From Gammaproteobacteria bacterium (GTDB lineage: Bacteria; Pseudomonadota; Gammaproteobacteria; Steroidobacterales; JABDKV01), in the NCBI GenBank assembly GCA_013003425.1, contig JABDJB010000051.1, positions 1-41,987 of the forward strand: a DNA stretch of 41,987 nucleotides, written 5' to 3'. The first letter of the stretch is position 1. Each line of letters starts with the position of its first letter. The translations under genes were made by a program, and so were the position numbers. Of the stretch, positions 1-34,126 are shown piece by piece. The notes beneath the pieces were generated by a model. The model saw nothing but the letters and a program-made list of their open reading frames with translations, did not search any database and had not been told where the DNA came from.

Positions 1-523
1 TGTATTTGGCCAGGACGATGGTATCGATACCGGCGTCAGCGAGTAGCGCCAGTTGCTGCTTTTCAACCTGCGGTTTGCTATCTGCGCTCAGCGCAAAGTG
101 ATGAAACGGGATACCGAAGCGTTGTGCTACTGGCTCGAGCGTAATGTGGTTGGAGACAATCAGCGGTATTTCCACCCGCGGCAGCTCGCCGGCCTCGTGG
201 CGTGCCAGCAGGTCGTACAGGCAATGGTTCTGCTTCGACACAAAGAGCGCCATACGGACCGGCGCATCGGAAAAATACAGCTCTGCGTGCATGCCCAGCG
301 GGTCGGTCAGCCTGGCAACAGCACCGGGTAACGCGTCGCGCGGAATGACAAAATCCTGCAGCGCCCACTCCACCCGCATGAAGAACACATCGTCGTCCGT
401 ATCCACATGCTGGTCGAGATGAACGATATTGCCGCCATTGCCATGGATGAATGCGGTCAGTTGCGCTACCAGGCCGGGCTGATCCGGACAGGACACCAGC
501 AGTGTTGCGTTTCCTTCAGACAT
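1..523 (-). CDS. purU: Formyltetrahydrofolate deformylase PurU (3' end outside the window)
   Basis: Reading the minus strand from ATG at 523 gives about 174 codons with no stop before the left edge, so the gene is cut at its 3' end. Residues 1-80 form an ACT domain beginning SEGNATLLVSCPDQPG, which is typical of PurU. From about residue 87 the formyltransferase fold starts with VRMALFVSKQNHCLYDLL, where PurU proteins have a similar VSK..HCL..LL segment. PurU hydrolyses 10-formyl-tetrahydrofolate to formate and tetrahydrofolate, supplying formate to purine synthesis and balancing one-carbon pools in the cytoplasm. An in-frame stop lies a few codons upstream of the ATG, which fixes the start, although no strong Shine-Dalgarno is visible. 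Full-length family members have about 280 residues, so roughly the last third is missing. The catalytic region lies in that unseen part. Confidence 0.9.
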   Translation of the reverse strand, partial: MSEGNATLLVSCPDQPGLVAQLTAFIHGNGGNIVHLDQHVDTDDDVFFMRVEWALQDFVIPRDALPGAVARLTDPLGMHAELYFSDAPVRMALFVSKQNHCLYDLLARHEAGELPRVEIPLIVSNHITLEPVAQRFGIPFHHFALSADSKPQVEKQQLALLADAGIDTIVLAKY

Positions 524-660
524 GGCGTGAATGTAACGGTGTTATGCGGGTTTGTCATGAACGCCTTTCTCAGTCCAGGTTGCCTGCTGCGTCGGCAAGG
601 CTGCCGATGCAGCCGCTTGGCCTGCGGGAATTCCGTACAGCGGCCGCGCTTTCCGCCGCC

Positions 661-666
661 TATACT
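661..666 (+). promoter_or_regulatory. Possible -10 element upstream of the giant repeat-protein gene
   Basis: TATACT matches the sigma-70 -10 consensus at five of six bases and lies about 90 bases before the ATG at 759. No convincing -35 box is present at 16-18 bases upstream, so this is only a weak suggestion. The start itself is supported by GAGGGA a few bases before the ATG. Confidence 0.2.
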
Positions 667-758
667 CATGATGTGCGTGGACAATTCGCGGCCCGCGCAC
701 ACCGGAAAAGTGCGAAATAACAATCGCTTCCACATGACGAGCGATAAAGAGGGACCCG

Positions 759-3700: not shown

Positions 3701-5444
3701 TGATGTCTCGCTGGGCGGTTCGTTCCAGCAGTCTGACATCGGCACGTTCAGTTCGAACGGTACAGTGACTATCGACGGCTTTCTCGATAACACCGGGCAG
3801 ACACTCAATATCGACACCCTCCCGGGTGACTGGAAGTTTGGCAGCGGCACTGTCTCCGGCGGCACGATAAGCGGCACGCTGCTGGAGGTAACCGGCTCCA
3901 ATGGCGCACTCGACAATGTCACTCTCGATGCCAACATGGACCTGCTGAATGGACAAATCCTCAACCTGCGCAATGGACTGACTTTGAGTGGTTCCACAAT
4001 CACACTGAAGAGCGATGGCTCCGTCACTCAATTGATTGCCGATGGAACGCAGACAGTGGATGGCAGCGGGCTGATTCTCTTCGGTGGCAATACAGCCAAT
4101 GAATCCCGCAATCGTTTCTCTGCAGGCAGCAGCGGCGACACATTGACGGTCGGGCCAGCAATTACAGTGGCAGTAGATACAGTAGGTGGCTGGCTTGGCA
4201 CAACAACTGCAAATCGCGGCCTGACGGTTAACGGAACCGTCAGCTCGGCTGTCTCCGGCAAGAAGATCTCGATCTTTGGAGACCCAATGTCGATTACCGG
4301 CAACGTGGCTGCAACGCTGGGCGGCAATATCGAGATTAGTGGTGACTGGAGTGCCAGCGCGGCGGCGGATATCTCCATCAGCGGTGGCGGCGAGCTGGCA
4401 CTGTTCGGGCAGTGGGTCAACGACGGTCCGATTACGGTTTCAAACAGCCTGCTGGACATCGGCAACAACACCACCAGCGATATCTGGACAAACACGGGAG
4501 CAATCGATCTGGTTGACTCTGATGCCGAACTTGGCGGGCTGTTCTCGTTCGCTGACCTGGGAATTTTCACCAGCACTGGTACTGGCGTGATGACAGTGAA
4601 CGGCATACTCGACAACGCCGGCCTCACGCTTGACCTGGACACCGTACCAGGCACGTGGGAGCTGGGCACCAGTGGCGAAATCACCGGCGGCACCGTAACC
4701 GGTACCACTTTCCTGATCAGCGGCAACGGTGGCCTGAATGGTGTGACGCTTGATGTCGATACCACCCTTGGTGACGGGGTTACCAGCACCGTAACCAACG
4801 GCTTAACGCTGAATAACATGTTGACGCTTGCGAGCACGGGATCCGTGACATCCCTGCTGTTCGACGGAAACCAGACCCTCGATGGTACGGGAGAAGTGCT
4901 GTTTGGCGGCACCACTGCCAACGACACACGCGACCGTATTTCCGTTGGCGGCTCGACGAACCTCACCATAGGCTCCGGTATCACTGTCAGGCCATTGACT
5001 GTAGGTGGGTTGATTGGATCAACCAGTAGCGGTCGCCAGGTTACGCTGCAGGGAACCATCAGGGCCAACCAGCCTGAGGTGATTACGCTGAACGGCAGGC
5101 CCTTTACCAATAACGGCTCGATCGAGATCGACGCCGGCGCGAGCATTGCGGGTACCTCTGACTATGTACAGGGCGCGGGTGGCAGTCTTGCTGTCGAAAT
5201 CAGCGGGACAGGCCTTGCCGACTTCGGCCGGATCGACATGACCGGCAGCTCGACGCTGTCACTGAATGGCACGCTTGATATCTCGGTAGCAGGCTTCGCG
5301 CCAGCGCCTGGAAATATGTTCGAAATACTCGGCGCTGGTTCACGCAGCGGAACGTTCTCGACGGTCAACGGTACCAATGCAGGCGGCGGCCTGACGTTCG
5401 TGCCGATTTACAACGCGGACAACGTTACGCTCGACGTTCAATAA
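759..5444 (+). CDS. Giant exported protein: TSP3/dockerin-like module plus 273-residue tandem repeats
   Basis: This 1,561-residue protein starts with a signal peptide (cleavage likely after ATQALA, residue 25). Residues 26-115 carry an Asp-rich thrombospondin type 3 repeat (DQDADGIPDRQDNC) and two EF-hand-like loops (DINNDGIVDLLDLALFR and DADLNGDNSIDLQDLALVR), ending in PGPVG. This resembles a dockerin-type calcium module. A GDW..AENW segment near residue 125 is typical of the N-terminus of beta-helical exoproteins. From residue 269 there are four complete repeats of 272-274 residues and a shortened fifth, each with SVTQ, SRNR, GGW.G, GDP and LLDIG landmarks. The last 90 residues have the GNMFEILGAGSRSGTF and YNADNVTLDV motifs that close many large repetitive exoproteins. 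I see no autotransporter barrel, LPXTG or PEP-CTERM signal. A role in adhesion or as a surface structure is inferred. The start is supported by GAGGGA upstream. Confidence 0.85.
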   Translation: MSTPFSVTRLLGVLILGLGATQALADQDADGIPDRQDNCLLQSNASQLDSNGDGYGNACDPDINNDGIVDLLDLALFREVFLTSAGNPGYDIDADLNGDNSIDLQDLALVRVGFLAPPGPVGQVRWVNPESGDWNVAENWFPNKPIAPNFALIDTPGIVVTHDTGSNECAGVLSDADIELSGGTLTVNGDLDMQGTLNMTGSTNTRLRNARVLRGVATKGPGAPLVLTSNVVLDNVTLAFDLTIDNGLTINFDNNLTLDNSDLTLASNGSVTQGVFRGSQTLGGTGTIFYSGSTTNPSRNRLVPQNAGDVLTVEPGITLRSSPAGGWLGTTSAGRGVNMAGTVIADVAAAQLAVQGDPLSITGGLLSATGGAKVTVAGNWTATAAALMSADGGSELELFGSWVSQATVNVNNGLLDIGNNNSTDFWDNQGTITLTGSDAELGGVFGPADIGNLTSSGTTTLNGRLVLTGLTFDLDTAPGNWQLATGGIIQDGTVTGTLLPIVSSAGLDGTILAVDAEQANGTVVEVFNGLTLNSIYSVISNGSVTQLIFRGNQTLDGTGTLLYSGSTTNNSRNRVLASTAGEVLTIESGITVQTGTTGGWIGATAADRGLIFRGTADANAIDAELLIQGDPLTVNAELTASNGAILEVDGDWTAPDTTTMTTTTGAELELHGNWSSEAVVSVTDGLLDIGDNNDADTWTNLGTITLVSSNAELGGVFVPADIGNMSVDGLSTLNGRLILTGLTFNVDNEPGTWQLGTSGIIQDGTVTGSGLTIVGNGDLDGTILSLPVEQNTGLIVDVFNGLTLDGSTYTLISNGSVTQMIFQGTQLLDGTGTILFSGSTANNSRNRVFAGNNGDSLTVDAGITVRTGTTGGWVGTTSAGRGLTFMGSAIADVSGAVLTLQGDPLAIDGSLSGSAGASLVVDGDWMASGATTMTMAGGGTLELNGTWTSSANITVTDSFLDIGNDPAEPWTNLGSISLVDSDVSLGGSFQQSDIGTFSSNGTVTIDGFLDNTGQTLNIDTLPGDWKFGSGTVSGGTISGTLLEVTGSNGALDNVTLDANMDLLNGQILNLRNGLTLSGSTITLKSDGSVTQLIADGTQTVDGSGLILFGGNTANESRNRFSAGSSGDTLTVGPAITVAVDTVGGWLGTTTANRGLTVNGTVSSAVSGKKISIFGDPMSITGNVAATLGGNIEISGDWSASAAADISISGGGELALFGQWVNDGPITVSNSLLDIGNNTTSDIWTNTGAIDLVDSDAELGGLFSFADLGIFTSTGTGVMTVNGILDNAGLTLDLDTVPGTWELGTSGEITGGTVTGTTFLISGNGGLNGVTLDVDTTLGDGVTSTVTNGLTLNNMLTLASTGSVTSLLFDGNQTLDGTGEVLFGGTTANDTRDRISVGGSTNLTIGSGITVRPLTVGGLIGSTSSGRQVTLQGTIRANQPEVITLNGRPFTNNGSIEIDAGASIAGTSDYVQGAGGSLAVEISGTGLADFGRIDMTGSSTLSLNGTLDISVAGFAPAPGNMFEILGAGSRSGTFSTVNGTNAGGGLTFVPIYNADNVTLDVQ
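1563..5100 (+). repeat. In-frame tandem repeats of about 819 bp (four full, one partial)
   Basis: The codons for the GS(V)T landmark recur at 1563, 2382, 3201, 4017 and 4839, giving spacings of 819, 819, 816 and 822 bp (273, 273, 272 and 274 residues). Each unit contains SRNR, GGW(L/I/V)G, GDP(L/M) and an (L)LDIG landmark in the same order. The fifth copy is degenerate, with NDTRDR, GGLIGS and GRPF at the corresponding places, and runs into the C-terminal module. The spacing is exactly counted. The degree of DNA identity between copies was judged only by eye. Confidence 0.9.
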
Positions 5445-15572: not shown

Positions 15573-18500
15573 TCAGTCGGTGCCGCTCGGGCCCGGTGCG
15601 GTACCAAACAGTTCGCGCATGATTGCCAGGTCGAACGTATTGACGACCTCGTCGCAATCGAGATCGGCGTCATTCTTGCCTTGCTTGCCGAACTCCTCTC
15701 GCATGATGCCCAGGTCAAAGCTGTTGACAATGCCATTGTTGTCCAGGTCAGCATCACAGAGGTTGCCGAACTTGTCGCCGTTGGTGTCGCACTGGTCAGG
15801 GTTGTCGACCTCGATGCAGTTGTCACAGACGTTACCCAGCCCGTCCAGATCCTGATCTTCCTGGCCGGGGTTGGCGGTAAACGGACAGTTGTCCTGTATA
15901 TCGAGGATGCCATCGGAATCGCTGTCGGGCGCAACCAGGCCGCACCGATCGAGCAAAAATGCTGCCATGACCTGGGTCCGGTCGACGAGTCCAAGCGCCT
16001 CGACCGGATAGCCGAAATATGCGCTCTTGATGCCATCAGTCTTGTTAATAGCAGCACCTCCGCCAGGCACACTGGCGTTACCGGTAAACGCAATTTCTGA
16101 GGTTGCTGGTTCTGGAACCAGATCGTCAGAGTAATTGCTGAACGGGTAATCCAATGAGTAGTTACCGAGCGTGCCGAATATCGAACCCGCGCCGCCCACG
16201 GTTACCTGCTCGACATCAGACGTGGCAGTCAGCAAACCAAGATGAGTCGTCATGAACGCCGTGTTGCCACGATCGTAGAAGTAGTCCTGTGAACTCAGCA
16301 ACAGGCACCCGCCGGCGTCCAGATAACTGCCCAGCGCCGACTCTCCTGCAGCACCCGGGCCGGCAAAACCGCCGAATTCATCACCGCTGAACCATACAAC
16401 TGCATTGTAGGCGGACAGCTGAACCGCAGTTGGCTCATTGTCCGAGTTGGCGGTGTCCCACACGTCATGCGGCATGGCCAGGTTTGCAAGTGCAGCCGTA
16501 TAGGCCGCCCGAACGTCAGGGTCATTGTCATCGTCATCGACCAGCAGTACGAAACCAGGCGCACCGGTCGTGAATGACGACTCGGCAAAAGCTGAATCTC
16601 CGCACGAGTTCATCGCGCGCACCCGCCAGTAATAGGTGGCAAACGGATCCAGCGTGAGATCAAAAGTGTGCGACGCCTCGGTCGTCGTTGTCGACGCAAT
16701 CACGCTGGTGTACGCCGCATCGCTTGCGAGAGTGAGTTCGTAGCTGCCGCCCTGACCGCCGTCATCCCAGCGGAATAAAGGAGCCAGCCCGACGCGTTCG
16801 GCACCGTCGACAGGCGCTACAGGCACTGGCTGCCCGGCTGGCGCATTGTAAAGCGCCAGCCCGATATCCTGCGACGCGCGGAAAGTGCCGCCATCGTCAC
16901 CGGTAACAGTCATTGTGAACGTTCCCGGCGTGGCGCCCGGAGTGGCAATGCTCAGCGCGCTGGCTGCCGGTGCGGTGGCAGGGTTAGGTGCAAACGTCGC
17001 TGTTGCTCCGGCCGGCGCACCGCTTAGCGACAGCGTAACCGCCGCCGGTACCGCCGGGGGATTGACTCCAAGATCGACGACGTAATCGGCAGACGCGGGC
17101 GCACACACTGCGAGTTCATCCGGCGTAACGCTCAGGGTGAAGTCGGCCTGACACTCGCGCGGCGGTGAAAAGCCGTTGACAACAACAGTCGTGGCGGGCG
17201 TGCCGGGAACGGCATCGGCGCCCAGGCCGAAGTCGGCGAATGCCTGCCAGATGAGGCAGACATCTTCGCCGCCATAATTATCCACTGCCGCCTGCACGAT
17301 GCCGTCACGCACATCGGCAAAAGTCGGCTGGCAAATGGTGTTCTTCAGACCTTCATTGACATACAGCATGGCGCGCTGGTTACCAGACCCGCCCATCGCA
17401 TCGTAAAGATCCGGCGAAAAGCCGTGCTGATCGACCAGCGCCCAGTAAACTTCCCACGCGGCCTGCGCCCAGACCGAGCCAACGCCGTGTGGCGCCACGC
17501 GCGAACCTATCGATTCGTAGGTGTCAGGATTGACGCTGTTGTCAGTCGAATACGGAAACGGTCGGATGCCGGGTCCGTCAGGTGCCTGGCCAAACAGATA
17601 GGTACCAATACCGCGTACATCCGGGCCGGTATCGCCGACCTCGGCTGTATACACAAGCGCCCACCAGTCAGACAGGCCTTCGCCCGGCTGCTGGTCGCCC
17701 TCGAGGCAGAAGGTGTTGAGCGGGCCGCCAACGAGGCGGTTGGAAATACCGTGGCCGTACTCGTGCACGATCACGCCATTATCGAGGTCACCGTCTCGCT
17801 CGGGGGTGACCAGGTCGCACGTGTACATTTGCATGCGCCCGGTGAAGCCGTCCGGCAACGTGCCGAAGTTGGCGTTGCAGTTGCCACCGTTTGTTGAATT
17901 GTCGTTGGCATCGTCCTGGGCCTCTGCCTCGACCCAGTCCTGGTCGAGAGCAAAATCGCCGCCACGACCATAGTTATTGAGCTGGAAGTTGCCGGCGGCT
18001 TCATCGAACCCGTACTGGTACTGCACGTCATGAATGATGTTGTTCCAGTAGAACAGGTTGATGACAGAGGCCGGGATGTGGTTGACAGGATCTACGGTCA
18101 GGTTGATTGGCGCAGTGCAGTCCAGCGGCGGCCCACAGTTCACTTGTGCAGCCGGCGGGTTATTGTTGCCATCACGGTCCTCGTAGGCCTCGACATTGTT
18201 GCCGCGGGTAATCGTGAAATCGGCACCGGCAAAACCATCCGTGTCGTGCCAGCCGAAGGGTGATGCCGTAGCGTCGGCCGGATCCAACTGAATCGTCCTG
18301 CCATCCGCCGGCGGCAGCGGCGCGGTGTGGTTCGGGCTTTCGACAGGCTGCTCGTAAACTTCGTAGGTCGCCGAGTCGACGGCGTCGAAGCGAGTCCAGG
18401 TTGTGCCGTCGACCGCGTCGATATTGAACTGGTAAATGTGCTGACTGTCGTTTGTGAACACCAGGAAATTCCACGCCAGCCTGGCGTTGCCGGCCGCAAT

Positions 18501-19211
18501 CGGCACCAGCGTGAGCCGCGCCTCGATTGGCTCCTGCGAAAAAGCAGGTGCGGATAGCACCGTGTACTGATCCGTACCACTCGGTGCCTGCTGGACACTC
18601 ACGGCACCGGCGGTAGTGCCAAGGTGTGCGGCTGCAGCTGCCACGGCATCGGCGGCGGTTAATGCGGGCGTTGTGGTGTTTACTGCTCCGGCCAGCTGCG
18701 GCAGGAACCTGTTATTGACGCTGATGATACGACCGTCGCGATTAACATTCACATGAAGCTGGCCGTTATAAAGCGACAACCCGGCCGCTACCTGCTGCCA
18801 GTAGATATGCGTTGCGCCGCTGACGGCTGAATAGACCTTGCTTTCGAGCTCCATATCCGTGAGATCTGCAGCCGACAGGCCGAGCAGCGTTGCATTTGCG
18901 TTGACGAAGGCCAGCGCGATGGCTTCGTGATCGCCGGATTGCGATCCGGTCAGATACCCGGTGTGGTTGGACAGCGTACGCGTAACGCCGCTGGCGTGAT
19001 CTATCGAATAACCCAGTGAAGTTATTGACGCCTCCAGCGCGTCAAGCGCGACCTGTTGCGCCGCCGTTGGCACCACATTCAGCCCTGCATTTAGCGCCGG
19101 TCGAGCATCGTAATCGCGCTTTACAGCGTCGCGGGTTACCGCCTGCGCCGGTGTGGTAAAAAATGACGTGCTGAGGAAAACGACGATAACAAAGCGACTG
19201 AAGCGCAACAT
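15573..19211 (-). CDS. Exported M36 (fungalysin-like) metalloprotease with amidotransferase-like, TSP3 and dockerin-like domains
   Basis: The 1,212-residue product has a signal peptide (about 24 residues, ending TTPAQA) and then a fungalysin/thermolysin-type propeptide region. The M36 catalytic domain has HEYGH at 483-487 and the third zinc ligand probably Glu511 in GEGLSDWW. Next are a Ser/Thr/Ala-rich and Fn3-like region (about 700-880) with YYWRVRAMNSCGDS, and an alpha/beta domain (about 885-1090) starting FVLLVDDDDND with class-I amidotransferase/ThuA-like features. TSP3 repeats (about 1098-1151) and two EF-hand/dockerin-like repeats (1152-1212) ending APGPSGTD close the protein. It is likely a secreted, calcium-stabilised endopeptidase. 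AGGAG about nine bases before the ATG supports the start. The C-terminal module is closely similar to that of the 41404 gene. Confidence 0.92.
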   Translation of the reverse strand: MLRFSRFVIVVFLSTSFFTTPAQAVTRDAVKRDYDARPALNAGLNVVPTAAQQVALDALEASITSLGYSIDHASGVTRTLSNHTGYLTGSQSGDHEAIALAFVNANATLLGLSAADLTDMELESKVYSAVSGATHIYWQQVAAGLSLYNGQLHVNVNRDGRIISVNNRFLPQLAGAVNTTTPALTAADAVAAAAAHLGTTAGAVSVQQAPSGTDQYTVLSAPAFSQEPIEARLTLVPIAAGNARLAWNFLVFTNDSQHIYQFNIDAVDGTTWTRFDAVDSATYEVYEQPVESPNHTAPLPPADGRTIQLDPADATASPFGWHDTDGFAGADFTITRGNNVEAYEDRDGNNNPPAAQVNCGPPLDCTAPINLTVDPVNHIPASVINLFYWNNIIHDVQYQYGFDEAAGNFQLNNYGRGGDFALDQDWVEAEAQDDANDNSTNGGNCNANFGTLPDGFTGRMQMYTCDLVTPERDGDLDNGVIVHEYGHGISNRLVGGPLNTFCLEGDQQPGEGLSDWWALVYTAEVGDTGPDVRGIGTYLFGQAPDGPGIRPFPYSTDNSVNPDTYESIGSRVAPHGVGSVWAQAAWEVYWALVDQHGFSPDLYDAMGGSGNQRAMLYVNEGLKNTICQPTFADVRDGIVQAAVDNYGGEDVCLIWQAFADFGLGADAVPGTPATTVVVNGFSPPRECQADFTLSVTPDELAVCAPASADYVVDLGVNPPAVPAAVTLSLSGAPAGATATFAPNPATAPAASALSIATPGATPGTFTMTVTGDDGGTFRASQDIGLALYNAPAGQPVPVAPVDGAERVGLAPLFRWDDGGQGGSYELTLASDAAYTSVIASTTTTEASHTFDLTLDPFATYYWRVRAMNSCGDSAFAESSFTTGAPGFVLLVDDDDNDPDVRAAYTAALANLAMPHDVWDTANSDNEPTAVQLSAYNAVVWFSGDEFGGFAGPGAAGESALGSYLDAGGCLLLSSQDYFYDRGNTAFMTTHLGLLTATSDVEQVTVGGAGSIFGTLGNYSLDYPFSNYSDDLVPEPATSEIAFTGNASVPGGGAAINKTDGIKSAYFGYPVEALGLVDRTQVMAAFLLDRCGLVAPDSDSDGILDIQDNCPFTANPGQEDQDLDGLGNVCDNCIEVDNPDQCDTNGDKFGNLCDADLDNNGIVNSFDLGIMREEFGKQGKNDADLDCDEVVNTFDLAIMRELFGTAPGPSGTD

Positions 19212-19512
19212 GGCCTGTACTCCTGGTGAGAGGCGCGATGCTTTTCCGGACAGCTGCCCGGCTCGCACTGCAGACAAGAGCTGCAGGCCTTTCGCGACGC
19301 CTCAACGGAATTGTTGAATATGGGACTGAGGGTAGGCGTGTGCCTGTGCACAACCTATCCGGGAAATCCCTCAGCGCCGCAGGAGTAGCCGCCCAGCAGA
19401 GGTACGATGCGAGCGGCTCCCGCCGGCCGCCAACCTTTTGCCCATGCTGTGTAAAAATCTGGCGGCCTCTGTAGACTATTGACCCTGACAGCCAGCTTAT
19501 CGAGAGGCCACG
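19212..19512. other. Divergent intergenic region between the M36 protease and the Ysc84 lipoprotein gene
   Basis: These 301 bases hold both promoters. I see a CTGCAG-acaagag-CTGCAG inverted motif at 19268-19286, an AT-richer patch around 19305-19322 and a TAAAAA near 19450, but no -35/-10 pair that I would defend. I see no small gene. Confidence 0.35.
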
Positions 19513-20135: not shown

Positions 20136-20864
20136 CTAGGCCAGCTGCGCCAGGTATTGCGGCAGCATTTCCCGCCAGGTTTGCCAGTCGTGAGGCCATT
20201 CAGGCCCCCAGGAGTCGACCCGGTTTGGAATTCCCTTGCTGCCCAGCACATGCGCCATCCGCCAGGACTCGCCGATATCCTCGTGATCACCCTCGCCGCT
20301 CGCCAGGAGTATGAAACGCGTACGAAGCTGGTCGAGCAGCGGGCCTTCCAGCCCTGACAGGAAGTGCAGCGGCGAAGAATAATAGAAATCCTGGTTTATG
20401 CCGTGATTGAGCAGCTTTGACAGGTCATAGGTGCCGCTCATGCCAACGGCCGCACGAAAGGCATCCGGATGGCGGCACACGGTCGCCACTGCATTGAATG
20501 CGCCGATCGAGGCACCGGCTGTAATGATCTCTATGTCACCAGATTTACAGTCATTACGGATAGCCGGCATGACTTCATGATAAATGTAGGCGTCGAACAG
20601 GTTTTGCACCCGCGAGCGATATTCAGTCGAATGCTCACCTGTAACCCAGGTGTGGCCCGCAACGCTGTCTGTCGAGTAAACCTTGATCTTTCCGGCATCG
20701 ATGAGCGGCGCGAGACTGTGGATAAGGTGAAAACGCTCTACCTCCTCGGCGTCCCCGCCTGCCGTGGGAAACAACAGCACCGGCGTACCGTAATGACCCC
20801 AGCGCACCAGCTGAATGTGCTGCTCCAGCCGCTGCGTGTACCAATGCGTAATCTCTTTGTGCAT
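20136..20864 (-). CDS. Alpha/beta hydrolase, putative esterase (operon gene 4)
   Basis: The 242-residue product has a central alpha/beta-hydrolase fold, with strand PVLLFPTAGGDAEEVER near 28-44 and nucleophile elbow GASIGAF with Ser119. An acid residue probably lies in the LLASGEGDHED segment near 190-200, and a late histidine in WPHDWQTW. It belongs to the COG4947-like esterase group near esterase D. No signal peptide is present, so it is cytoplasmic. Its ATG starts one base after the ATP-grasp stop (TGA-T-ATG), a strong sign of translational coupling. It probably cleaves an ester or amide made or used by the ligase in this operon. The actual substrate is unknown. Confidence 0.85.
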   Translation of the reverse strand: MHKEITHWYTQRLEQHIQLVRWGHYGTPVLLFPTAGGDAEEVERFHLIHSLAPLIDAGKIKVYSTDSVAGHTWVTGEHSTEYRSRVQNLFDAYIYHEVMPAIRNDCKSGDIEIITAGASIGAFNAVATVCRHPDAFRAAVGMSGTYDLSKLLNHGINQDFYYSSPLHFLSGLEGPLLDQLRTRFILLASGEGDHEDIGESWRMAHVLGSKGIPNRVDSWGPEWPHDWQTWREMLPQYLAQLA

Positions 20865-20865
20865 A

Positions 20866-22101
20866 TCAGGCCGCGCTGTCCTGTTGCCGCCACTGCTGAA
20901 TGCGATCCCAGAACAGCTGAGTAAATTCCTCTACTTCATGCTCCGGGTACAGCGCCTCCACCTTTTGTCGTACGGCATCGTAGGCTGCGTCGGAACCGAA
21001 AAACTCCAGTGCAACCTCATCGAGATCGCCCAGGTGCTTTTCGCAAAACTCGCCAAAGCGATCGTACTCGAAATGGGCCATCGCGAGCCGGGAATAGTCG
21101 GCCAGCTTGTCCTCAAAGGGCTTGTCTTCAGCGGCAATCGCGAAGTATTGCTGCCAGTTGAGCGTCGGCATGATGCGATCGGTTGCTGCACAAAAGACTG
21201 ACCAGCGCAGGTTGGCCTTTATCAGCCACGGGAAATGAAAATGCAGCGAACTTACCTGGGAATCCGGGCACGCATTGGCGAAATCAATCGGCCGCCATAC
21301 GCCTTTGCCCCGCAGCGCTTCGCAGGAATTGAAATCCCAGCCGAAAAACGCATTGATAACCATGGTCATGTCCGCGAGAAGTTTTTCGTCTTCTGCAGAC
21401 AGAAAATGGGTATCCATACGGTAGCGGTCATGTAACGGCGCTGCCGGATCATAATTGACGAAACGCCACTGCGGACCCAACCCCAGGCAGCGCACAAAAG
21501 CGTCGTTCGGCAACACCGCTTCCTGCAGGTGCATTACCCGCGTGCCGCTCTTGTCGTAGGCATCGTGCAGCGCTTCCCGATCGTGAATCGCAGTCACGCC
21601 AACCCATGCGCCACCATCATAGGGCTTCATAAACAGCGGATAGCCAATACGGTCACCAATCTCGCCCAGATCGAACAGGTTTGCGTACTGTTGCAAAGTC
21701 GGCTGCAGATCCGGGGTCTCGGCATACTCCTTTGGCGGCACCAGCCAGGTGTCGGGCACCGGAAAACCCAGCCGCATCATGGCGCAGTAACTCGTGTGTT
21801 TTTCCATTGCCGTCAGTGACCATGGATTGTTGAACACGTACAGGTCGTCGGTAAGTATCGACTTCTTTATCCACTCACGCGAAGTGTGGTACCAGTGTGT
21901 CAGGCGGTCGATCACGACATCGTAACGACACTCCTGGCGCAGGTCGAAAGGTTCAATATGCACGCGCTCCACTTCGAAACGCTGCGTTTCATTCCCGGTC
22001 TTTATTTCGAGGTCGAGTTTCCGCAGCAATCCTTCGTAACAGATTGGCCAGCAGATGTCGGCCCCGAGTGAAAGCCCTATTCGGCGAGTTCGCGTTGCCA
22101 T
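20866..22101 (-). CDS. ATP-grasp ligase of unknown specificity (operon gene 3)
   Basis: The 411-residue product has an N-terminal pre-ATP-grasp region (1-90) and an entry segment NNPWSLTAMEKHTSYCAMMR. These are followed by GFPVPDTWLV and the ATP-binding GYPLFMKPYDGGAWVGV (Lys159, GGAWVGV at 163-169), with a hinge near LQEAV at 192-196. The metal-binding segment PIDFANACPD at 271-280 is the RimK/glutathione-synthase-like D-x-x-N pattern. A helical C-terminal region of about 120 residues is not part of the core fold. ATP-grasp enzymes join a carboxylate to an amine, thiol or hydroxyl through an acyl phosphate. No partner carboxylate or amine can be read off. Two alpha/beta hydrolases and an S51-like protein surround it in one transcript, pointing to synthesis and trimming of a small peptide-like or ester-linked molecule. 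It is 44 bases after the hydrolase stop at 22146. Confidence 0.88.
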   Translation of the reverse strand: MATRTRRIGLSLGADICWPICYEGLLRKLDLEIKTGNETQRFEVERVHIEPFDLRQECRYDVVIDRLTHWYHTSREWIKKSILTDDLYVFNNPWSLTAMEKHTSYCAMMRLGFPVPDTWLVPPKEYAETPDLQPTLQQYANLFDLGEIGDRIGYPLFMKPYDGGAWVGVTAIHDREALHDAYDKSGTRVMHLQEAVLPNDAFVRCLGLGPQWRFVNYDPAAPLHDRYRMDTHFLSAEDEKLLADMTMVINAFFGWDFNSCEALRGKGVWRPIDFANACPDSQVSSLHFHFPWLIKANLRWSVFCAATDRIMPTLNWQQYFAIAAEDKPFEDKLADYSRLAMAHFEYDRFGEFCEKHLGDLDEVALEFFGSDAAYDAVRQKVEALYPEHEVEEFTQLFWDRIQQWRQQDSAA

Positions 22102-22145
22102 TGTCGTGTAAATCCTGTCAAAAGTAGTTCGTGATTAGTACCAGT

Positions 22146-23282
22146 CTATTCGTAAACCAGCCAAAGCGGGCCGGGAAACAGCCACGAAAGCCCGGTGCGC
22201 AGCCGATCCCGCCAGTTTTCCCAGTTGTGGGCGTCACGAGCCTCCTCGAATCGCACTTCGATGCCCTCGGCCTGCAGACGCGGAACGAGTGAGCGGTTTT
22301 CGTAGATCAGCGATTCGTAGATACCACAACTGAGATAGATGCGATTTGCTACCGGGCCGGGACCCTTGCGGAATTCATTCATGAATTGCACCACCGGGTC
22401 GAAAACCGGGCCACGCTGGTGGCGCCCCAGGTCGCTGAACGCAAAGGACCCCGATTGCAGCAACAGCCTGCCAAACAGACCGGGGTTGCGCCAGGCGGTA
22501 TGCAATGCCGCCACCCCGCCAAAGCTGGCGCCCATCAGGCAGCGTGACTGCGGCTCGTCCAGCAGCGGATAGCGGTCTGTCAGCTGTGTCAGCAATTCGT
22601 TGGCGACGAAATCCGCGTGCATATCGTTACCGGAATACTCTATCAACCGGTCCGGCGACTGTATCAGCGCCGCTATCAGTGGCGGTATCTCAAGCGCCTG
22701 GATGAGATTGTCCAGCACCGTCTGCAGCGCAGCAAAATTCAGGTAATCGTTGCCGTCATGCACGACCAGCAGCGGGTAGCGTCGATTCTTGCGAAACCGG
22801 GCCGGCAGATAAATAACAGCTTCGCGCTGCTCGCCAAAAACTGCGCTATCGAAGTGCAATTGCTCCAGTGACCCGGAGCGGACGGAAGGATCATGCTGCG
22901 TCCAGTCGGGCCGCTCATAGCCGTAACCCTGGCATACAGAGTTCGCGCCAAACGGGTCGTGCGCCAGCACGTCATTGAGCGGGTCGAGGATCAGCTCCCG
23001 GTGGCCATTGCTGACAACCTCGAACTTGTACTCGATGCGCGAACCCCTTGGCAGTTCAATCGTTGTCGCCCAAAGGTCGGAATCAGCCAGTTGCTGAAAC
23101 GGCTGTGCCGTATCGAGACCGGCAATCCAGCACCTCAGGAAAACCTCGTCGGCCTGGCCGTGATAGACAAAAGTTACATCGCTGCCGTCAACCAGGGGGA
23201 ATTCCGTCTCTTTGATAAAGACCTCGAGCGCGGCAGGCGCCGGTGACCCCTTGCGGAACAGTTGTCGCAGCTGCGGGTTCAT
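22146..23282 (-). CDS. Esterase-D/enterochelin-esterase-like alpha/beta hydrolase with N-terminal E-set domain (operon gene 2)
   Basis: From ATG at 23282 the product has 378 residues. Residues about 30-110 look like an E-set/CBM48-type domain (DVTFVYHGQADEVFLRCW, LPRGSRIEYKFEVV). The hydrolase domain from about 140 has REAVIYLPARF, the strand LLVVHDGNDY, nucleophile elbow GASFGG with Ser253, SGIYES-like CGIYES and the catalytic-His region DAHNWENWR. Enterochelin esterases (Fes) and related carbohydrate or trehalose esterases share this architecture. No signal peptide is present. Its ATG overlaps the upstream S51-like stop by four bases (ATGA), so the two are translationally coupled. A siderophore role is not supported, because no siderophore synthetase or receptor is nearby. 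Confidence 0.87.
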   Translation of the reverse strand: MNPQLRQLFRKGSPAPAALEVFIKETEFPLVDGSDVTFVYHGQADEVFLRCWIAGLDTAQPFQQLADSDLWATTIELPRGSRIEYKFEVVSNGHRELILDPLNDVLAHDPFGANSVCQGYGYERPDWTQHDPSVRSGSLEQLHFDSAVFGEQREAVIYLPARFRKNRRYPLLVVHDGNDYLNFAALQTVLDNLIQALEIPPLIAALIQSPDRLIEYSGNDMHADFVANELLTQLTDRYPLLDEPQSRCLMGASFGGVAALHTAWRNPGLFGRLLLQSGSFAFSDLGRHQRGPVFDPVVQFMNEFRKGPGPVANRIYLSCGIYESLIYENRSLVPRLQAEGIEVRFEEARDAHNWENWRDRLRTGLSWLFPGPLWLVYE

Positions 23283-24214
23283 GACGTGCGAAAACTCTCT
23301 AAACCGCCATCCTTTGCGATGCGCCGTGCGTTGCTGGCGGAGACAACGGCAGCACCGGAAAAATGCAGGGCGGTGCCATTGTCCATCGCGATGCACTGAT
23401 CGGGAGCAAAGCGCCGCGACAACAGCTCCATTCGTGCACGATCCTTGTCACGTAACCTTGCCGCGGCGTCGGGAAAGAAAATAAAACCGGGCAGCAGCCC
23501 GAAACCTGCACCGAAAATCTCGGGCTCGCGCCGCCCGTGCGGCGCACGATCATGGAACAACACAATACGTTGCGCGAGCGCCATCGCCCCGGCGGACCAG
23601 GCAACCACATGCGTATCTTTGATTAGCTCTTCGACTCCAAACAGGCGCATGCGGTTGAGAATGATGGCCAGGTTGCCGCCGGTGATGACCAGACCGGCCG
23701 ACCGCTGCAACACCTGTCGCACGGCATCGCGGTGACGAGACAAGTGCTCGGAAGGCTTATCCGCCAGCACTTCGTCACACTGCATGTTTATCGCCTGTGT
23801 GCGCTCGAGATGATGACGGTCGAGCGCCCGCAACTGCTCAATCGCATGGCGCTGCTCGACGGCCAGCATTTCTGCATCGCCCTTTGTCTTCAGAAGCTTT
23901 CGCGCCGCAGTCGCCAGTTGCCGCAGGCGCAGGCGGTATAACCGCTGCTGCCCCTTCAGTTGGTCCTGGCGCGCGCGACAGGCGGCAGCAAGCTCCGCAT
24001 CAGTGGCAAAGACCGCTTCGGCACGTTGATACAGGGCGAGATCCTCGAGTGGCCGGCCGAGCGCCTGGCGCACATGATCGATATCTGCCTCGGCCTCCTT
24101 CAGGCCGGCCGATATCACGGCCAGCGTGCCGGAAGGTACGCCGGCTGCATCACAGGCTTCCCCCAGGTTGGGCGTCGGCCGCTGCGGCCCCAGCATCAGC
24201 CTGACCGGGCTCAT
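23279..24214 (-). CDS. S51/class-I amidotransferase-like protein with coiled-coil insertion (operon gene 1)
   Basis: From ATG at 24214 the product has 311 residues. A first strand, VRLMLGPQRPTPNLGEA, and LAVISAG resemble the start of cyanophycinase/dipeptidase-E (S51) proteins. A helical, Arg/Gln/Leu-rich stretch (about 65-165) then interrupts the fold. It resumes with SAGLVITGGNLAIILNRM, the nucleophile elbow VVAWSAGAM with Ser207, LLPGFIFFPDAAARL and CIAMDNGTALHF. S51 enzymes normally have a His shortly after this LPG strand (D-x-H-F). Here the segment reads FIFFPDA, so the catalytic His seems absent or displaced. It may bind or process a modified peptide, or be a catalytically altered relative. 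The TTG at 24229 is a weaker start. It is first in a compact four-gene transcript. Confidence 0.8.
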   Translation of the reverse strand: MSPVRLMLGPQRPTPNLGEACDAAGVPSGTLAVISAGLKEAEADIDHVRQALGRPLEDLALYQRAEAVFATDAELAAACRARQDQLKGQQRLYRLRLRQLATAARKLLKTKGDAEMLAVEQRHAIEQLRALDRHHLERTQAINMQCDEVLADKPSEHLSRHRDAVRQVLQRSAGLVITGGNLAIILNRMRLFGVEELIKDTHVVAWSAGAMALAQRIVLFHDRAPHGRREPEIFGAGFGLLPGFIFFPDAAARLRDKDRARMELLSRRFAPDQCIAMDNGTALHFSGAAVVSASNARRIAKDGGLESFRTS

Positions 24215-29251: not shown

Positions 29252-30064
29252 CTAGCCTGAGGCGGAAATACCCCGGTCAGGTCGGGGATAAACAAGCCCA
29301 CCGGCACACTGCTTGCGATCGAATGGGCGCCAGGCATCCGGGTGCTGGGCGAGCCGATCGAAAATTGCCCACAGCACCGACGGGTTGTGACCGAGCCCGC
29401 AGTGACTGCCATAAACGCGAATATTCTCGGTGTGATCGGCCTCGACTTCCAGCGAGCACTGCCACGGCACGACACCATCGCTACGACTGTATATCGCGGT
29501 ACACGGCACGGGCGGCACGCGATAGCCATGGTCGAGCGCTTCGGGCGCGATCGGATCAATATGATCCATGTGGATTTCGTTGTACAACCAGGTTGCCGCC
29601 GTGTGCTCATGGTGCCGCAAGGGTGCACCGAGAGTAATTACCATGCGCACGTCGTCCGGGGCACGCCACGCAAGCTCGCGGGCATAAACACCACCGAGGC
29701 TCCAGCCAATCAGGCTGACACGGCGATCGTATCGCTGCCGCAGCTCGTGCATACGTGCCAGCACCGCACCATCATCAATAGTCGATGGGCCGAGGTTGCG
29801 ACCCAGTTTCCAGCGATGCCCCATGTAGCCGAGTTTCTTGAGAATGTGTCGCAGCGGAAAAGTGGACCGGCCACTTGCAAGGAAACCCGGCAGCACCAGC
29901 ACGGCATGCCCGTCACCACGTGGCGCCATGCGGAGCAGCGGGTATAGCCAGCCGTATGCCGCAAGCTCGGCAATCGCGCGGGTTTCCATCGCCTGCCGCA
30001 GCAGCGATGGCTTACGGATGTTGCTCGCGTTGTTGTCGGCTTGCGGTTTGATCACTGCAGACAT
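29252..30064 (-). CDS. Alpha/beta hydrolase, lipase/esterase-like
   Basis: The 270-residue product has an alpha/beta-hydrolase fold, with strand AVLVLPGFLASGRSTFPLRH (oxyanion region), nucleophile elbow LIGWSLGG with Ser122, TLGAPLRHHEHTA, an acid residue in YSRSDGVVPW and the final His in GSHCGLGHNP. The LPGF start and the RSDGVVPW-SHCGLGHNP end are like PGAP1/EstA-type and triacylglycerol lipase-like proteins. No signal peptide is evident. It lies next to the WS/DGAT-type acyltransferase genes, so a role in handling neutral lipids is plausible, but this is inferred only from neighbourhood. Confidence 0.85.
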   Translation of the reverse strand: MSAVIKPQADNNASNIRKPSLLRQAMETRAIAELAAYGWLYPLLRMAPRGDGHAVLVLPGFLASGRSTFPLRHILKKLGYMGHRWKLGRNLGPSTIDDGAVLARMHELRQRYDRRVSLIGWSLGGVYARELAWRAPDDVRMVITLGAPLRHHEHTAATWLYNEIHMDHIDPIAPEALDHGYRVPPVPCTAIYSRSDGVVPWQCSLEVEADHTENIRVYGSHCGLGHNPSVLWAIFDRLAQHPDAWRPFDRKQCAGGLVYPRPDRGISASG

Positions 30065-30395: not shown

Positions 30396-31811
30396 TCAAA
30401 CGACTGACGTCGCTGCCGCAGTCGCGGCGTAGGAATCATCGAGACACTGACAATAAAAAGAGGGGTCCGGCATAATTTCGCGGCACGACACTGCACTGAT
30501 CATGACTTTTCCGTTGTAGCTCACCACTGGCTGGAACAACCCGAGGCCATGCGCGACCGGACCCAGACCGTAAATGGCAACCATCCGCGAGCCCATCGAA
30601 TAAAGTGGCTGCTGAGCACCAGGCACATTGGTAATGATCAGGTTATAGAAAAGCGGCAGCCGCCTCGCCAGCCCGCTGCGCCCGTACGCGCGCGCCAGTA
30701 ATCCGGTGGTCATAGAGGGCAGGAATTGCGCCGCATCAGCGGCAAGCGAGGGCCCGATAGTAGCGGTGAGCTTTTTCGCCCGCCTGCTGGCCTCGGTTAC
30801 CGCCGCCAGCCGTTCGAGCGGGGCGGCAAAATCGCTGCCGACCGGCAGACTCATGGTTGTCACCTGGTTGCCTTCAGCACCTCGTTGCGAATCGGGTCGT
30901 GCCGAAACTGGCGCCATCGCAACCAGACTCTCTTCGGGTAACTCATTCTTTTCCAGCAGGTACCTGCGCAATGCGCCACCGCATATACTTACCACGACAT
31001 CGTTTACCGTGGCGCCTGGTACTGCGTTTTTCATTGCGCGAATTTTGTCGAGCGGAAAGCTGCGGCCATCAAAGACGCGATGGGCAGACACGTTATCGTT
31101 GAAACGCGTCCTCGGTACCTTGAGCTGCAGGCCGAAGTCGCCGGTCACCACACCCTTGCCGACACGCGCGGCGGCCGGAATATTGCGCAGGGCAAATTTC
31201 GCCATATCCAGCGGCTGACGGATGCTTCGTACCGCCGAACGCCCGAGCAAGCCCATCCGGGTGGGATGACCCTCCGGCTGCCAGTCAGGCACTGCGTCGC
31301 CGGGCTCCACCTCTGGCGTCAAGCCATGAAAAGCGCTGGCGATTTCAGCAGCCGATACACCATCTACCGCGGCGTGATGGAATTTGCTGACCACCGCAAA
31401 GCTGCCCGGCGGTACTCCGGCGACGTTATCGAGTCCTTCTATCACCCACGCTTCCCACAGTGGCTTGCTGCTGTCGAGCGGACGCGCGTGCAGCCGCGCG
31501 GTCTGGATACATAATTGCCGCCAGTCTCCTGGTTTTGGCAAAGCGATGTGGCGAATGTGGTATTCGAGATTAAATTCCGGATCTTCAATCCAGTAAGGGT
31601 GATCAAACTCCAGCGGCACATGCACGGCACGCCGGCGAAATGCCCGCGCGGTATGCAGCCGTTGCTGGTAGAAGCGCAGGATATCCTTGAATCCGACCTT
31701 TCCGCCCGGCGCCGTCGACTGATCGTAGATCGCCAGGCTGCCGATGTGCATCGGCATCTGCCCGGTCTCCAGGTACAGGAACGCGGCGTCGAGCCCCGAT
31801 AGCTGCTGCAT
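30396..31811 (-). CDS. WS/DGAT family O-acyltransferase (wax ester synthase/diacylglycerol acyltransferase) 1
   Basis: The 471-residue product starts MQQLSGLDAAFLYLET, the standard WS/DGAT opening, and has the catalytic HHAAVDG at 145-151 (HHxxxDG), preceded by PLDSSKPLWE at 111-120. Later motifs are VSICGGALRRYLLE, PVSARPDSQRGAEGNQ and NVPGAQQPLYSMGSRM, closing with LSCREIMPDP-like VSCREIMPDP. The enzyme transfers acyl groups from acyl-CoA to long-chain alcohols or diacylglycerol, making storage wax esters or triacylglycerols at the inner membrane. GGGAG about nine bases before the ATG supports the start. It is divergent from the crotonase and second WS/DGAT genes. Confidence 0.93.
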   Translation of the reverse strand: MQQLSGLDAAFLYLETGQMPMHIGSLAIYDQSTAPGGKVGFKDILRFYQQRLHTARAFRRRAVHVPLEFDHPYWIEDPEFNLEYHIRHIALPKPGDWRQLCIQTARLHARPLDSSKPLWEAWVIEGLDNVAGVPPGSFAVVSKFHHAAVDGVSAAEIASAFHGLTPEVEPGDAVPDWQPEGHPTRMGLLGRSAVRSIRQPLDMAKFALRNIPAAARVGKGVVTGDFGLQLKVPRTRFNDNVSAHRVFDGRSFPLDKIRAMKNAVPGATVNDVVVSICGGALRRYLLEKNELPEESLVAMAPVSARPDSQRGAEGNQVTTMSLPVGSDFAAPLERLAAVTEASRRAKKLTATIGPSLAADAAQFLPSMTTGLLARAYGRSGLARRLPLFYNLIITNVPGAQQPLYSMGSRMVAIYGLGPVAHGLGLFQPVVSYNGKVMISAVSCREIMPDPSFYCQCLDDSYAATAAATSVV

Positions 31812-31900
31812 GCATTATTCTCCCGCCGGCAACGGCAACGCAGTGAGCCGGTCTGGTTGCAGCTTAACGCATGTAGTACTGCCGGGGCAGGACAGGCAGG

Positions 31901-31930
31901 TTCCCACGCAGTGGCCGGGGCGTGTACGAT
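31901..31930 (+). promoter_or_regulatory. Weak promoter-like pair upstream of the crotonase operon
   Basis: TTCCCA (31901-31906) and TACGAT (31925-31930), 18 bases apart, each match four of six sigma-70 consensus bases and precede the ATG at 31960 by 29 bases. They lie in the 148-base gap shared with the divergent acyltransferase gene. Confidence 0.25.
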
Positions 31931-31959
31931 CAGACACGACGCAAGTGAGACTGGCAGCC

Positions 31960-32694
31960 ATGACCACCGATTCCATTCGCTACACCCTGCGCGACCAGGT
32001 CGCAACGATCGAGATTGACGATGGCAAGCGTAATGCGCTATCGCCGCAGCTGCTGCGCGAGATCAACCAGGCATTCGATCGCGCCGAGCAGGACCAGGCA
32101 ATTGTGATACTGACCGGAAGGGAGTCGGTTTTTTCCGCGGGCTTTGATCTCAAGGTAATGAAAGGCGGCGGTAGCAACGCGCTGCGCATGCTTGGTGCAG
32201 GCTACGCCCTGACGGCCCGGATCATGGGCTACCCCTACCCGGTCATTGCCGCATGCAATGGTCATGTGCTGGCGATGGGCGTGTTTATGATGCTGTCGGC
32301 CGATTACGTGATCGGCAGCCGTGGCGATTTCAAAATTGCAGCCAACGAAGTTGCCATCGGCCTGACGATGCCGCGGGTGGCAGCAGCGATGCTGCGTCAC
32401 CGCCTCAAACCGGCTGACTACCAACGCGCTGTAACCCTGTCGCAATATTTTGATGTGGAAACAGCACTGCAAGCCGGGTTTTTTGACGAACTCGTCGAAC
32501 CCGACCGGCTACTGCTGCGAGCCAACGAAATTGCCACCGATGCAAAACAACTCGACCGGCACGCACACAAAGCCTCAAAGCGCAGAATACGTGGCGCATT
32601 AATCCGTAAAATTCGCCTCAGCATCCCACTGGACCTGCTCGATGCCGCATTGCTTGGCTTGCGCCGCGCCCGCGCCCGCGCCCGCGCCCGCTGA
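31960..32694 (+). CDS. Enoyl-CoA hydratase/crotonase-like protein
   Basis: From ATG at 31960 the product has 244 residues. Crotonase landmarks are ATIEIDDGKRNALS, the first oxyanion-hole segment SVFSAGFDLKVM, the second around ACNGHVLAMGVFM, and NEVAIGLTMPRVA. The usual catalytic glutamates of enoyl-CoA hydratases are not obvious apart from the Glu in ANEVAIG, so hydratase activity is uncertain. The family also includes isomerases and hydrolases. The C-terminus ends in alternating Arg-Ala residues encoded by a CGCGCC repeat. The start has only a weak GTGAGA ribosome site. It is 37 bases upstream of the second WS/DGAT gene, and the two probably form an operon with the membrane protein gene. 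Confidence 0.87.
   Translation: MTTDSIRYTLRDQVATIEIDDGKRNALSPQLLREINQAFDRAEQDQAIVILTGRESVFSAGFDLKVMKGGGSNALRMLGAGYALTARIMGYPYPVIAACNGHVLAMGVFMMLSADYVIGSRGDFKIAANEVAIGLTMPRVAAAMLRHRLKPADYQRAVTLSQYFDVETALQAGFFDELVEPDRLLLRANEIATDAKQLDRHAHKASKRRIRGALIRKIRLSIPLDLLDAALLGLRRARARARAR
32665..32688 (+). repeat. CGCGCC hexanucleotide repeat (four perfect units) at the crotonase 3' end
   Basis: Four CGCGCC units in a row (32665-32688) are followed by CGCTGA, so the repeat sits just before the stop and codes for Ala-Arg pairs. Gain or loss of one unit adds or removes two residues without shifting the frame. It is a simple-sequence repeat prone to slippage. Confidence 0.9.
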
Positions 32695-32731
32695 ATTTCT
32701 AAACCCGCCTCAGGTAAACAACCAGTCCACT

Positions 32732-34126
32732 ATGAACACGCTATCCATATTCGACCTGGCCTTTTTCGCCACCGAGAGTGAACAAAGCCCGAAGCATGTC
32801 GCCGGCCTGATTACATTGCGCAAACCCGACGGAGCGCCTGTCGATTACGTCGAACAACTGGCCGCCGAAATACGATCCCACAACAAGCCAACGCCACCAT
32901 ATAACCAGGTTATTGATTTTGTCGGCGGCGGCTTGCCGCGCTGGCGCGAGGCGGAACACTTCGACATTGCAGACCATGTATTGCTGCATCAGCCCGAGCA
33001 GCCGCTGGATATGGCCGCCCTGACCCGCTTTGCTGCCAACCTGCACGGGCCGATGCTGTCGCGCGACCGACCGCTGTGGGAATTCCACTTTATTGATAAT
33101 GTCGATCGCGGGCGTTTTGCGATCTATGCAAAAACGCACCACTCATATGCCGATGGCGTCACGCTCACTGCCTGGATGAACCGCTCTCTTGCCGTCAGGC
33201 CGGGAACCGGTAACTGGGTGCCGGTGTGGGCTCTGGACCATTCAAAGCAGCGCCGTGAGTCAGACCGCGTGCAGCAAAACCTGCTGCAAAAACTGCTGCT
33301 CGGGTCGCGCAAGCAATTTATCAATGTCCTGGGTTTTGCCAAACTGGGCGCGCAGCTGTGGCTGGAGCGCTTCGGCCTGACACGCAACGCCGTCGCGGTA
33401 CCGTTTCGCGCCACCGGCGAAACACCGCTGACCGGCAGCGTCAGTTCGGCGCGGCAGCTTGCCGTAGCGGCTGTCGACATGGAACGCGTGCAGACGATCC
33501 GCTCGCTGACCCGCTCGACCCTCAATCATGTCGCCCTCACCTGCATCGACGGGGCGCTGCATCACTACCTGGAAGATCTCGGCGTACAGCTGGAGCAGCC
33601 GATCACCATCCAGATGCCGGTATCGCTGCGTCGCGAAGGTGACGAAAAGGCAGGCAACCAGATCGGCATCGTGCTTGTTGACCTGGCACAGCGCACCACT
33701 GATCCCTACGTGCGGTTGCGCGAGATCGGTTTCACGCTGCGCAATGTGCGCAGCCAGGTTGACGGTGTGCCGCCGGGTTCAGTAATGCACTACACGCTGG
33801 CACTGGGTGTCTTCGCACAGCTGGCCGAGTTTTTGCGTCTTACCGATGTGTTGCCACCGGTTGGCAACACGCTGGTCTCTAATGTACCCGGGCCGAAAAA
33901 ACCACTCTTCCTTGGCGATGCAGAAGTGGAGACTATCGTGCCGATCAGCACGCTGACCCCGGGCAACCGGCTCAACATCACGCTGTACAGCTACGCCGGT
34001 ACGCTGTATTTCGGACTGGTGGGAACCGAAGAGCTCGGCGACCTGCAGTCACTTGCCGGACACATCGAGCGTGCTTTCGTCGAACTGGAACAGGCAGTGC
34101 AGACGCCGGCATCCGGTGGGCGCTGA
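32732..34126 (+). CDS. WS/DGAT family O-acyltransferase 2 (divergent paralogue)
   Basis: From ATG at 32732 the product has 464 residues. The opening MNTLSIFDLAFFATESEQSP is a variant of the WS/DGAT start, and HHSYADG at 136-142 fits HHxxxDG, preceded by MLSRDRPLWEFHF. The C-terminal half has QMPVSLRREGDEKAGNQIG and LVSNVPGPKKPLFLGDAEVE. It is clearly a different subfamily from the 30396 gene: the acceptor-side segments diverge and PLD(x)PLWE is replaced by LSRDRPLWE. Substrate choice (wax alcohol, diacylglycerol or another alcohol) cannot be read. The crotonase gene ends 37 bases upstream, and a membrane-protein gene starts four bases after its stop. An earlier ATG at 32642 gives a Pro-rich leader overlapping the crotonase. 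Confidence 0.9.
   Translation: MNTLSIFDLAFFATESEQSPKHVAGLITLRKPDGAPVDYVEQLAAEIRSHNKPTPPYNQVIDFVGGGLPRWREAEHFDIADHVLLHQPEQPLDMAALTRFAANLHGPMLSRDRPLWEFHFIDNVDRGRFAIYAKTHHSYADGVTLTAWMNRSLAVRPGTGNWVPVWALDHSKQRRESDRVQQNLLQKLLLGSRKQFINVLGFAKLGAQLWLERFGLTRNAVAVPFRATGETPLTGSVSSARQLAVAAVDMERVQTIRSLTRSTLNHVALTCIDGALHHYLEDLGVQLEQPITIQMPVSLRREGDEKAGNQIGIVLVDLAQRTTDPYVRLREIGFTLRNVRSQVDGVPPGSVMHYTLALGVFAQLAEFLRLTDVLPPVGNTLVSNVPGPKKPLFLGDAEVETIVPISTLTPGNRLNITLYSYAGTLYFGLVGTEELGDLQSLAGHIERAFVELEQAVQTPASGGR

Follow-up and report, generated by a model that had tools for sequence, protein, structure and literature searches.

The four minus-strand genes at positions 20136–24214 of the 41,987-nt stretch analyzed here (the window) constitute a conserved operon that, in relatives, is coupled to the ADP-glucose-type GlgA of glycogen synthesis and frequently to ATP-grasp proteins resembling amino acid ligases. 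Our favored reading, to which we assign a probability of about 0.42, is that this cassette is horizontally exchanged and works with alpha-glucan (glycogen) synthesis, the glycogen store being linked to a decoration or conjugate of aminoacyl/peptidyl (or acyl) type that can be put on and reversed. Because the operon is shared by several phyla and is often joined to glycogen genes, small acyl or peptide groups would probably be put on and taken off in connection with glycogen. We found no published description of the cassette in the open-licence literature, although an earlier mention is possible, and we regard it as unstudied, uncharacterized and mobile.

Gene 1 encodes an S51-like protein (311 aa, 23279–24214, minus strand; PF03575 at 1.6e-7, above the cut-off) and is followed by EST1, a Fes-like two-domain esterase (gene 2, 378 aa, 22146–23282, minus strand; PF00756 at 1e-23 and an AF2 model), by GRASP, an ATP-grasp enzyme of an uncharacterized family with a RimK-like fold in its AF2 model (gene 3, 411 aa, 20866–22101, minus strand), and by EST2, a second alpha/beta hydrolase (gene 4, 242 aa, 20136–20864, minus strand; PF00756 at 2.7e-6). 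The three junctions are a 4-bp overlap (23279–23282), a 44-bp gap (22102–22145) and a 1-bp gap (20865). Strand, gene order and junctions therefore agree exactly with the earlier sequence-only reading, as does the absence of obvious signal peptides from all four N-termini upon inspection. The -35/-10-like pair that the same reading placed upstream of the quartet was not recovered, since a consensus scan returned no minus-strand promoter and no excess over shuffled sequence. Alignments showed that core motifs are kept in all four protein families. Chance can be ruled out as the origin of the gene order because the same order is found in dozens of distant genomes, and the quartet is almost certainly a real operon.

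We used GRASP to scan GTDB genomes, which returned relatives at 510 places, and kept the best 80; these come from several phyla and share 62–79% identity with the window protein over the aligned part. Within this best-80 set, EST1 lies directly upstream of GRASP in 72 of the 77 loci with enough flank, EST2 lies directly downstream in 66 of 76, and the S51-like gene directly precedes EST1 in 46 of 66, often with a 4-bp overlap. The median S51/EST1, EST1/GRASP and GRASP/EST2 gaps are -4, 56 and -4 bp, with gene starts being approximate because ORFs were called automatically; neighboring ORFs were clustered after codon-scored calling. The locus set is biased toward kin, includes many metagenome contigs and contains some contigs twice, and taxon groups are as named in the sequence records. 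The S51-like gene is present in most gammaproteobacterial, myxobacterial and acidobacterial loci and in half of the planctomycete loci, but was detected in none of 11 alphaproteobacterial loci (three of which carry GCS2), and hence does not belong to the minimal core. The conserved core is EST1-GRASP-EST2. The sequence-only reading had treated the four genes as one system; neighborhood analysis bears out the co-occurrence of the families and their conserved adjacency, with the S51-like gene standing outside the minimal core.

The distribution of GRASP is sparse at the level of the phylum (2 of 398 genomes sampled), and rises to 29 of 196 genomes in the order and four of five in the family. Carriers include cultured marine bacteria. 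One genome (G408) holds two full GRASP copies on separate contigs (C57 and C110), both 71–72% identical to the window protein. Carriage of the cassette by plasmids or phages was considered and rejected, as tblastn gave no match to GRASP in plasmid or phage collections.

The sequence-only reading had assigned the quartet no pathway. This no longer holds, as relatives link it to glycogen synthesis (GlgA, GlgC, GlgB, MalQ and GlgX), and the link is strong. GlgA is encoded within about 8 kb in 22 of the 38 loci whose flanks extend for at least 7 kb both ways, where chance alone would give about 1% for a 4-Mb genome carrying such a gene once or twice (our own estimate, made without matched controls). 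These GlgA-bearing loci belong to Gammaproteobacteria, Planctomycetota, Acidobacteriota, Myxococcota and unplaced genomes. Counting all loci, duplicate contigs included, GlgA (TIGR02095) is a neighbor in 50 of 99. The other recurrent neighbors are GlgC, GlgB, GlgX, a PGM1/BesA-like ligase, GCS2, a GARS-like ligase and, with 140 genes in 71 loci, an ATP-grasp family (AG3) whose closest solved relatives are L-amino acid ligases. The extended clusters of relatives thus carry the amino-acid ligation chemistry known from L-amino acid ligases, PGM1/BesA and YbdK/GCS2 ligases. In two loci (L034 and L043), AG3 ORFs are, at about 800 aa, double the normal size, which suggests a tandem fusion of two ATP-grasp ligases.

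The order GlgA-AG3-S51-EST1-GRASP-EST2 occurs on one strand in three loci (L061, L081 and L060), where the junctions range from -22 to 16 bp save for one of 114 bp in L060, and in some Myxococcota GlgA heads the same operon as the cassette. In a genome of the same genus as the window genome (G001, locus L091), S51, EST1, GRASP, EST2 and GlgA follow one another in the same direction between a GlgC gene and a MalQ-GlgX-GlgB block, all of opposite orientation, and EST2 and GlgA abut (0 bp). Co-directional adjacency to glgA therefore recurs in several lineages, as in a glycogen-associated operon. Compared with the bacterial glycogen locus (glgC-glgA-glgB-glgX-malQ), the cassette lies in or beside that locus in many relatives, whereas none of its four genes belongs to the classical pathway.

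Co-occurrence at the genome level points the same way. Across the order, GlgA (PF08323) is present in 28 of 29 GRASP-bearing genomes versus 96 of 167 others (Fisher 1.4e-5, kinship ignored). In one family (f94), a high-scoring GlgA type is found in all 11 GRASP genomes versus one of 16 other GlgA-bearing genomes (9e-7), a comparison confined to the genomes listed and based on GlgA types that were split after the scores had been seen. Among 36 quartet genomes, picked mostly because the cassette had no GlgA beside it, 34 encode GlgA, although GlgA is itself common (12 of 14 controls).

No glycogen gene adjoins the cassette in the window genome or in alphaproteobacterial loci. The window genome has its own glycogen locus on another contig (C78), encoding Pgi, GlgC, GlgA, MalQ, GlgX and GlgB; this locus is syntenic with that of the same-genus genome G001 but has no quartet separating glgC from glgA. 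The window GRASP falls within a nine-row set (100/99 support) together with Woeseiaceae copies and the copy of another same-genus genome (G002), while the GRASP copies of G001 and of a genome from the same family (G004) fall outside it. The GlgA of the window genome, by contrast, groups with the GlgAs of G001 and G004 (100/99). As the cassette and the glycogen locus lie apart and the two proteins group differently, the simplest reading suggests a horizontal replacement, in which a foreign Woeseiaceae-type cassette took the place of the one located between glgC and glgA in relatives. GCS2 is encoded on another contig than the quartet, and no close AG3 copy was found in the window genome, so that AG3 is not essential.

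GRASP was modeled with a pLDDT of 87.2, and the closest fold is that of RimK (Z = 19.4 over 260 residues, 5–306; 12–15% identity). Lys158, Glu260, Asp272 and Asn275 are invariant among relatives, so that the fold, the ATP-binding lysine and the metal-binding acidic/Asn residues of the ATP-grasp superfamily are all present. The RimK family comprises the ribosomal S6 alpha-L-glutamate ligase and LysX/ArgX. GRASP keeps the core ATP-grasp residues of this family, its nearest in fold, but differs in its genomic context, in the near-invariant motifs DRLTHWY, REWIKK and DFANxCPDSQV, and in an all-helical C-terminal extension (residues 315–411; 20866–21159, minus strand) seen in the secondary structure of the model, where RimK matches end at about residue 306. 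No Pfam family scored above its cut-off (best, Dala_Dala_lig_C at 0.0012). GRASP is thus neither a recognizable D-alanine–D-alanine ligase (PF07478, 18.8 vs 24 bits; NCBIfam models far below their cut-offs) nor a RimK glutamate ligase (TIGR00768, 16 bits vs a cut-off of 143), and the outcome named as refuting the sequence-only reading, a clear grouping of GRASP with a single-purpose enzyme of known type, did not arise.

The model of EST1 (pLDDT 91.4) matches the enterobactin esterase Fes best among solved structures (Z = 33.6 over 349 residues, covering both domains), followed by CBM48-CE1 esterases (Z of about 27–28). The predicted triad, Ser253-Glu323-His352, is invariant in 40 sequences and falls on the corresponding residues of Fes in a profile alignment. 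The E-set N-terminal domain (residues about 29–120; 22923–23198, minus strand), delineated by weak CBM48/CBM20/Enterochelin_N matches and by structural alignment, resembles the Fes N-domain and the CBM48 of CE1 esterases alike, a likeness that does not by itself point to glucan binding. What had been described as an E-set alpha/beta hydrolase does contain the E-set, but the description is better amended to the whole Fes architecture, a two-domain fold with a Ser-Glu/Asp-His triad. EST1 nonetheless lies well outside the Fes equivalog (PRK10439, 99.8 bits vs a cut-off of 222) and, compared with Fes and IroD, shares both domains and the aligned Ser/Glu/His at 22% identity but has different operon partners. 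No siderophore gene was recognized in the window, as had been noted from the sequence, or among the recurrent neighbor clusters of relatives, and a siderophore role of EST1 was accordingly rejected. With the CBM48-CE1 carbohydrate esterases (feruloyl/acetyl xylan), which act on plant polysaccharides, EST1 has in common the combination of an E-set/CBM48 domain and a CE1-type hydrolase; it differs in having no obvious signal peptide and, in relatives, in standing beside glycogen synthesis genes. For EST2, the predicted triad is Ser119-Glu195-His225, and its GASIG, G..E and HDW.TW motifs are conserved in 75 sequences.

The PF03575 match of the S51-like protein scores 31.6 bits against a cut-off of 23.9 but spans only the C-terminal half (residues 159–289). 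In a 27-sequence alignment of relatives, the WSAGAM nucleophile motif and Ser207 are invariant, whereas Asp249 of the window protein aligns with the canonical catalytic His, both of E. coli PepE (His157) and of the genome's own cyanophycinase (DQHF motif), using hhalign. About 13 of the 27 relatives have His in this column, as counted in the printed alignment. The loss of the canonical His is mainly found in the Woeseiaceae-type branch, and His221 is nearly invariant. The loss with retention of His221 may reflect a switch of catalytic residue or a lost peptidase activity, and a peptidase role of the window protein appears doubtful since the canonical His is missing. Compared with the peptidase S51 family (dipeptidase E, cyanophycinase), the protein shares the fold region and the nucleophile-elbow Ser but has Asp in place of His and about 100 extra residues before the Pfam match. 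A region outside that match (residues about 60–155; 23750–24037, minus strand), in which Arg82, Gln90, Arg96, Asp132 and His135 are invariant, could be, as a guess, a helical insert.

The gene is also not the cyanophycinase of this genome, because cphA/cphA-like genes and a canonical cyanophycinase lie together on another contig (C55). There, at 57–5392 (C55:1–12000, locus L111), three genes stand in a row: one resembling cyanophycin synthetase (928 aa), a second of Mur-ligase-like type (556 aa) and the canonical cyanophycinase (DQHF). The observation that no cyanophycin synthetase lies nearby thus stands for the window, though not for the genome, where such a gene is present elsewhere with its own cyanophycinase.

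The chemistry that we infer for the cassette starts with GRASP, which would use ATP to activate a carboxylate (an amino acid, a short peptide or another small acid) and join it to an acceptor bearing an amine or hydroxyl group; this acceptor, or else the eventual carrier, would be an alpha-glucan, a malto-oligosaccharide or a glucose precursor made or extended by GlgA. EST1, with its E-set domain, and EST2 would then either transfer the ester groups so formed or strip them off, and the S51-like protein may cut or recycle the amide part or act as a non-peptidase partner. Gene neighborhood does not separate a glucan acceptor from mere co-regulation, and a distinctly possible, if less probable, alternative is that the cassette makes a small soluble amide or dipeptide, as a nitrogen reserve or compatible solute comparable to NAGGN or cyanophycin dipeptides, with the esterases releasing or trimming the product and the glycogen genes being co-regulated stress or storage neighbors. 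The amino-acid-ligase-like AG3, GCS2 and PGM1/BesA-like neighbors fit such amide or peptide chemistry, in keeping with the small peptide-like or acyl-amide product proposed from the sequence, in which the S51 peptidase role is the doubtful part; many loci, including those of alphaproteobacteria and the window, have no local glycogen genes. However, both the same-genus genome and some Myxococcota have GlgA in the same operon, overlapping or abutting, and a plain dipeptide needs no two Fes/CE1-type esterases.

The ATP-grasp fold by itself does not tell a ligase from a kinase (ITPK1, Z = 17.8, vs RimK, 19.4). ATP-grasp kinases such as ITPK1 and PPIP5K exist, and these two are among the next structural neighbors of GRASP after RimK (Z of about 17–18), so GRASP might instead be a small-molecule or glucan kinase, the cassette phosphorylating a glycogen-related sugar or polyol and the hydrolases acting on by-products. 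The GlgA link would also suit this role; yet we consider it improbable, given that the weak sequence matches of GRASP favor D-Ala-D-Ala/RimK-type ligases, that the partner genes are ligases, and that two esterases and an S51-like protein suit acyl/amide chemistry better. The presence of two hydrolases and a peptidase-like protein per ligase, close to GlgA, GlgC and MalQ, could also indicate repair or detoxification, in which glycogen turnover gives rise to sugars that are damaged or carry wrong acyl groups, or to glycated amino acids, and the cassette breaks these down or recycles them. Such a function seems unlikely, because the extended clusters are dominated by ATP-driven ligases (GRASP, AG3, PGM1 and GCS2), which favors synthesis over repair. 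The least probable is a graspetide/RiPP system in which GRASP cyclizes a ribosomal precursor peptide: the RimK-like GRASP does match the fold of the graspetide ligase PsnB (Z = 16.6), but no conserved small ORF that could serve as precursor was present in the flanks of the examined loci, no transporter or leader peptidase recurs among the neighbor clusters, and the enzymes are very highly conserved across phyla.

In bacteria, glycogen is viewed as an unmodified polymer of glucose. A more specific form of the glycogen-linked reading, which we put forward as a rather speculative proposal, is a covalently decorated glycogen or maltodextrin, of a new kind, to which amino acids or short peptides would be added by ATP-grasp ligases and from which they would be removed by the Fes-like and the second esterase, giving a joint store of carbon and nitrogen or a tunable polymer; such a system would have spread horizontally among phyla. 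A GlgA-coupled ligase/esterase cassette in several phyla would imply an unrecognized step or product in a very common storage pathway, and the compact genes, the kept core motifs and the cultured marine carriers make the question directly testable.

Elsewhere in the window, a large M36-like metallopeptidase (15573–19277) and a 1561-aa repetitive protein (759–5444) both seem to contain dockerin-like calcium repeats (DxNxDGxVDxxDL), which to our knowledge are unusual outside cellulosome bacteria. At 30396–34126, an enoyl-CoA hydratase-like gene has a WS/DGAT-like (wax ester synthase) gene on either side, and an alpha/beta hydrolase gene lies nearby at 29252–30064; this group possibly represents a storage-lipid locus.
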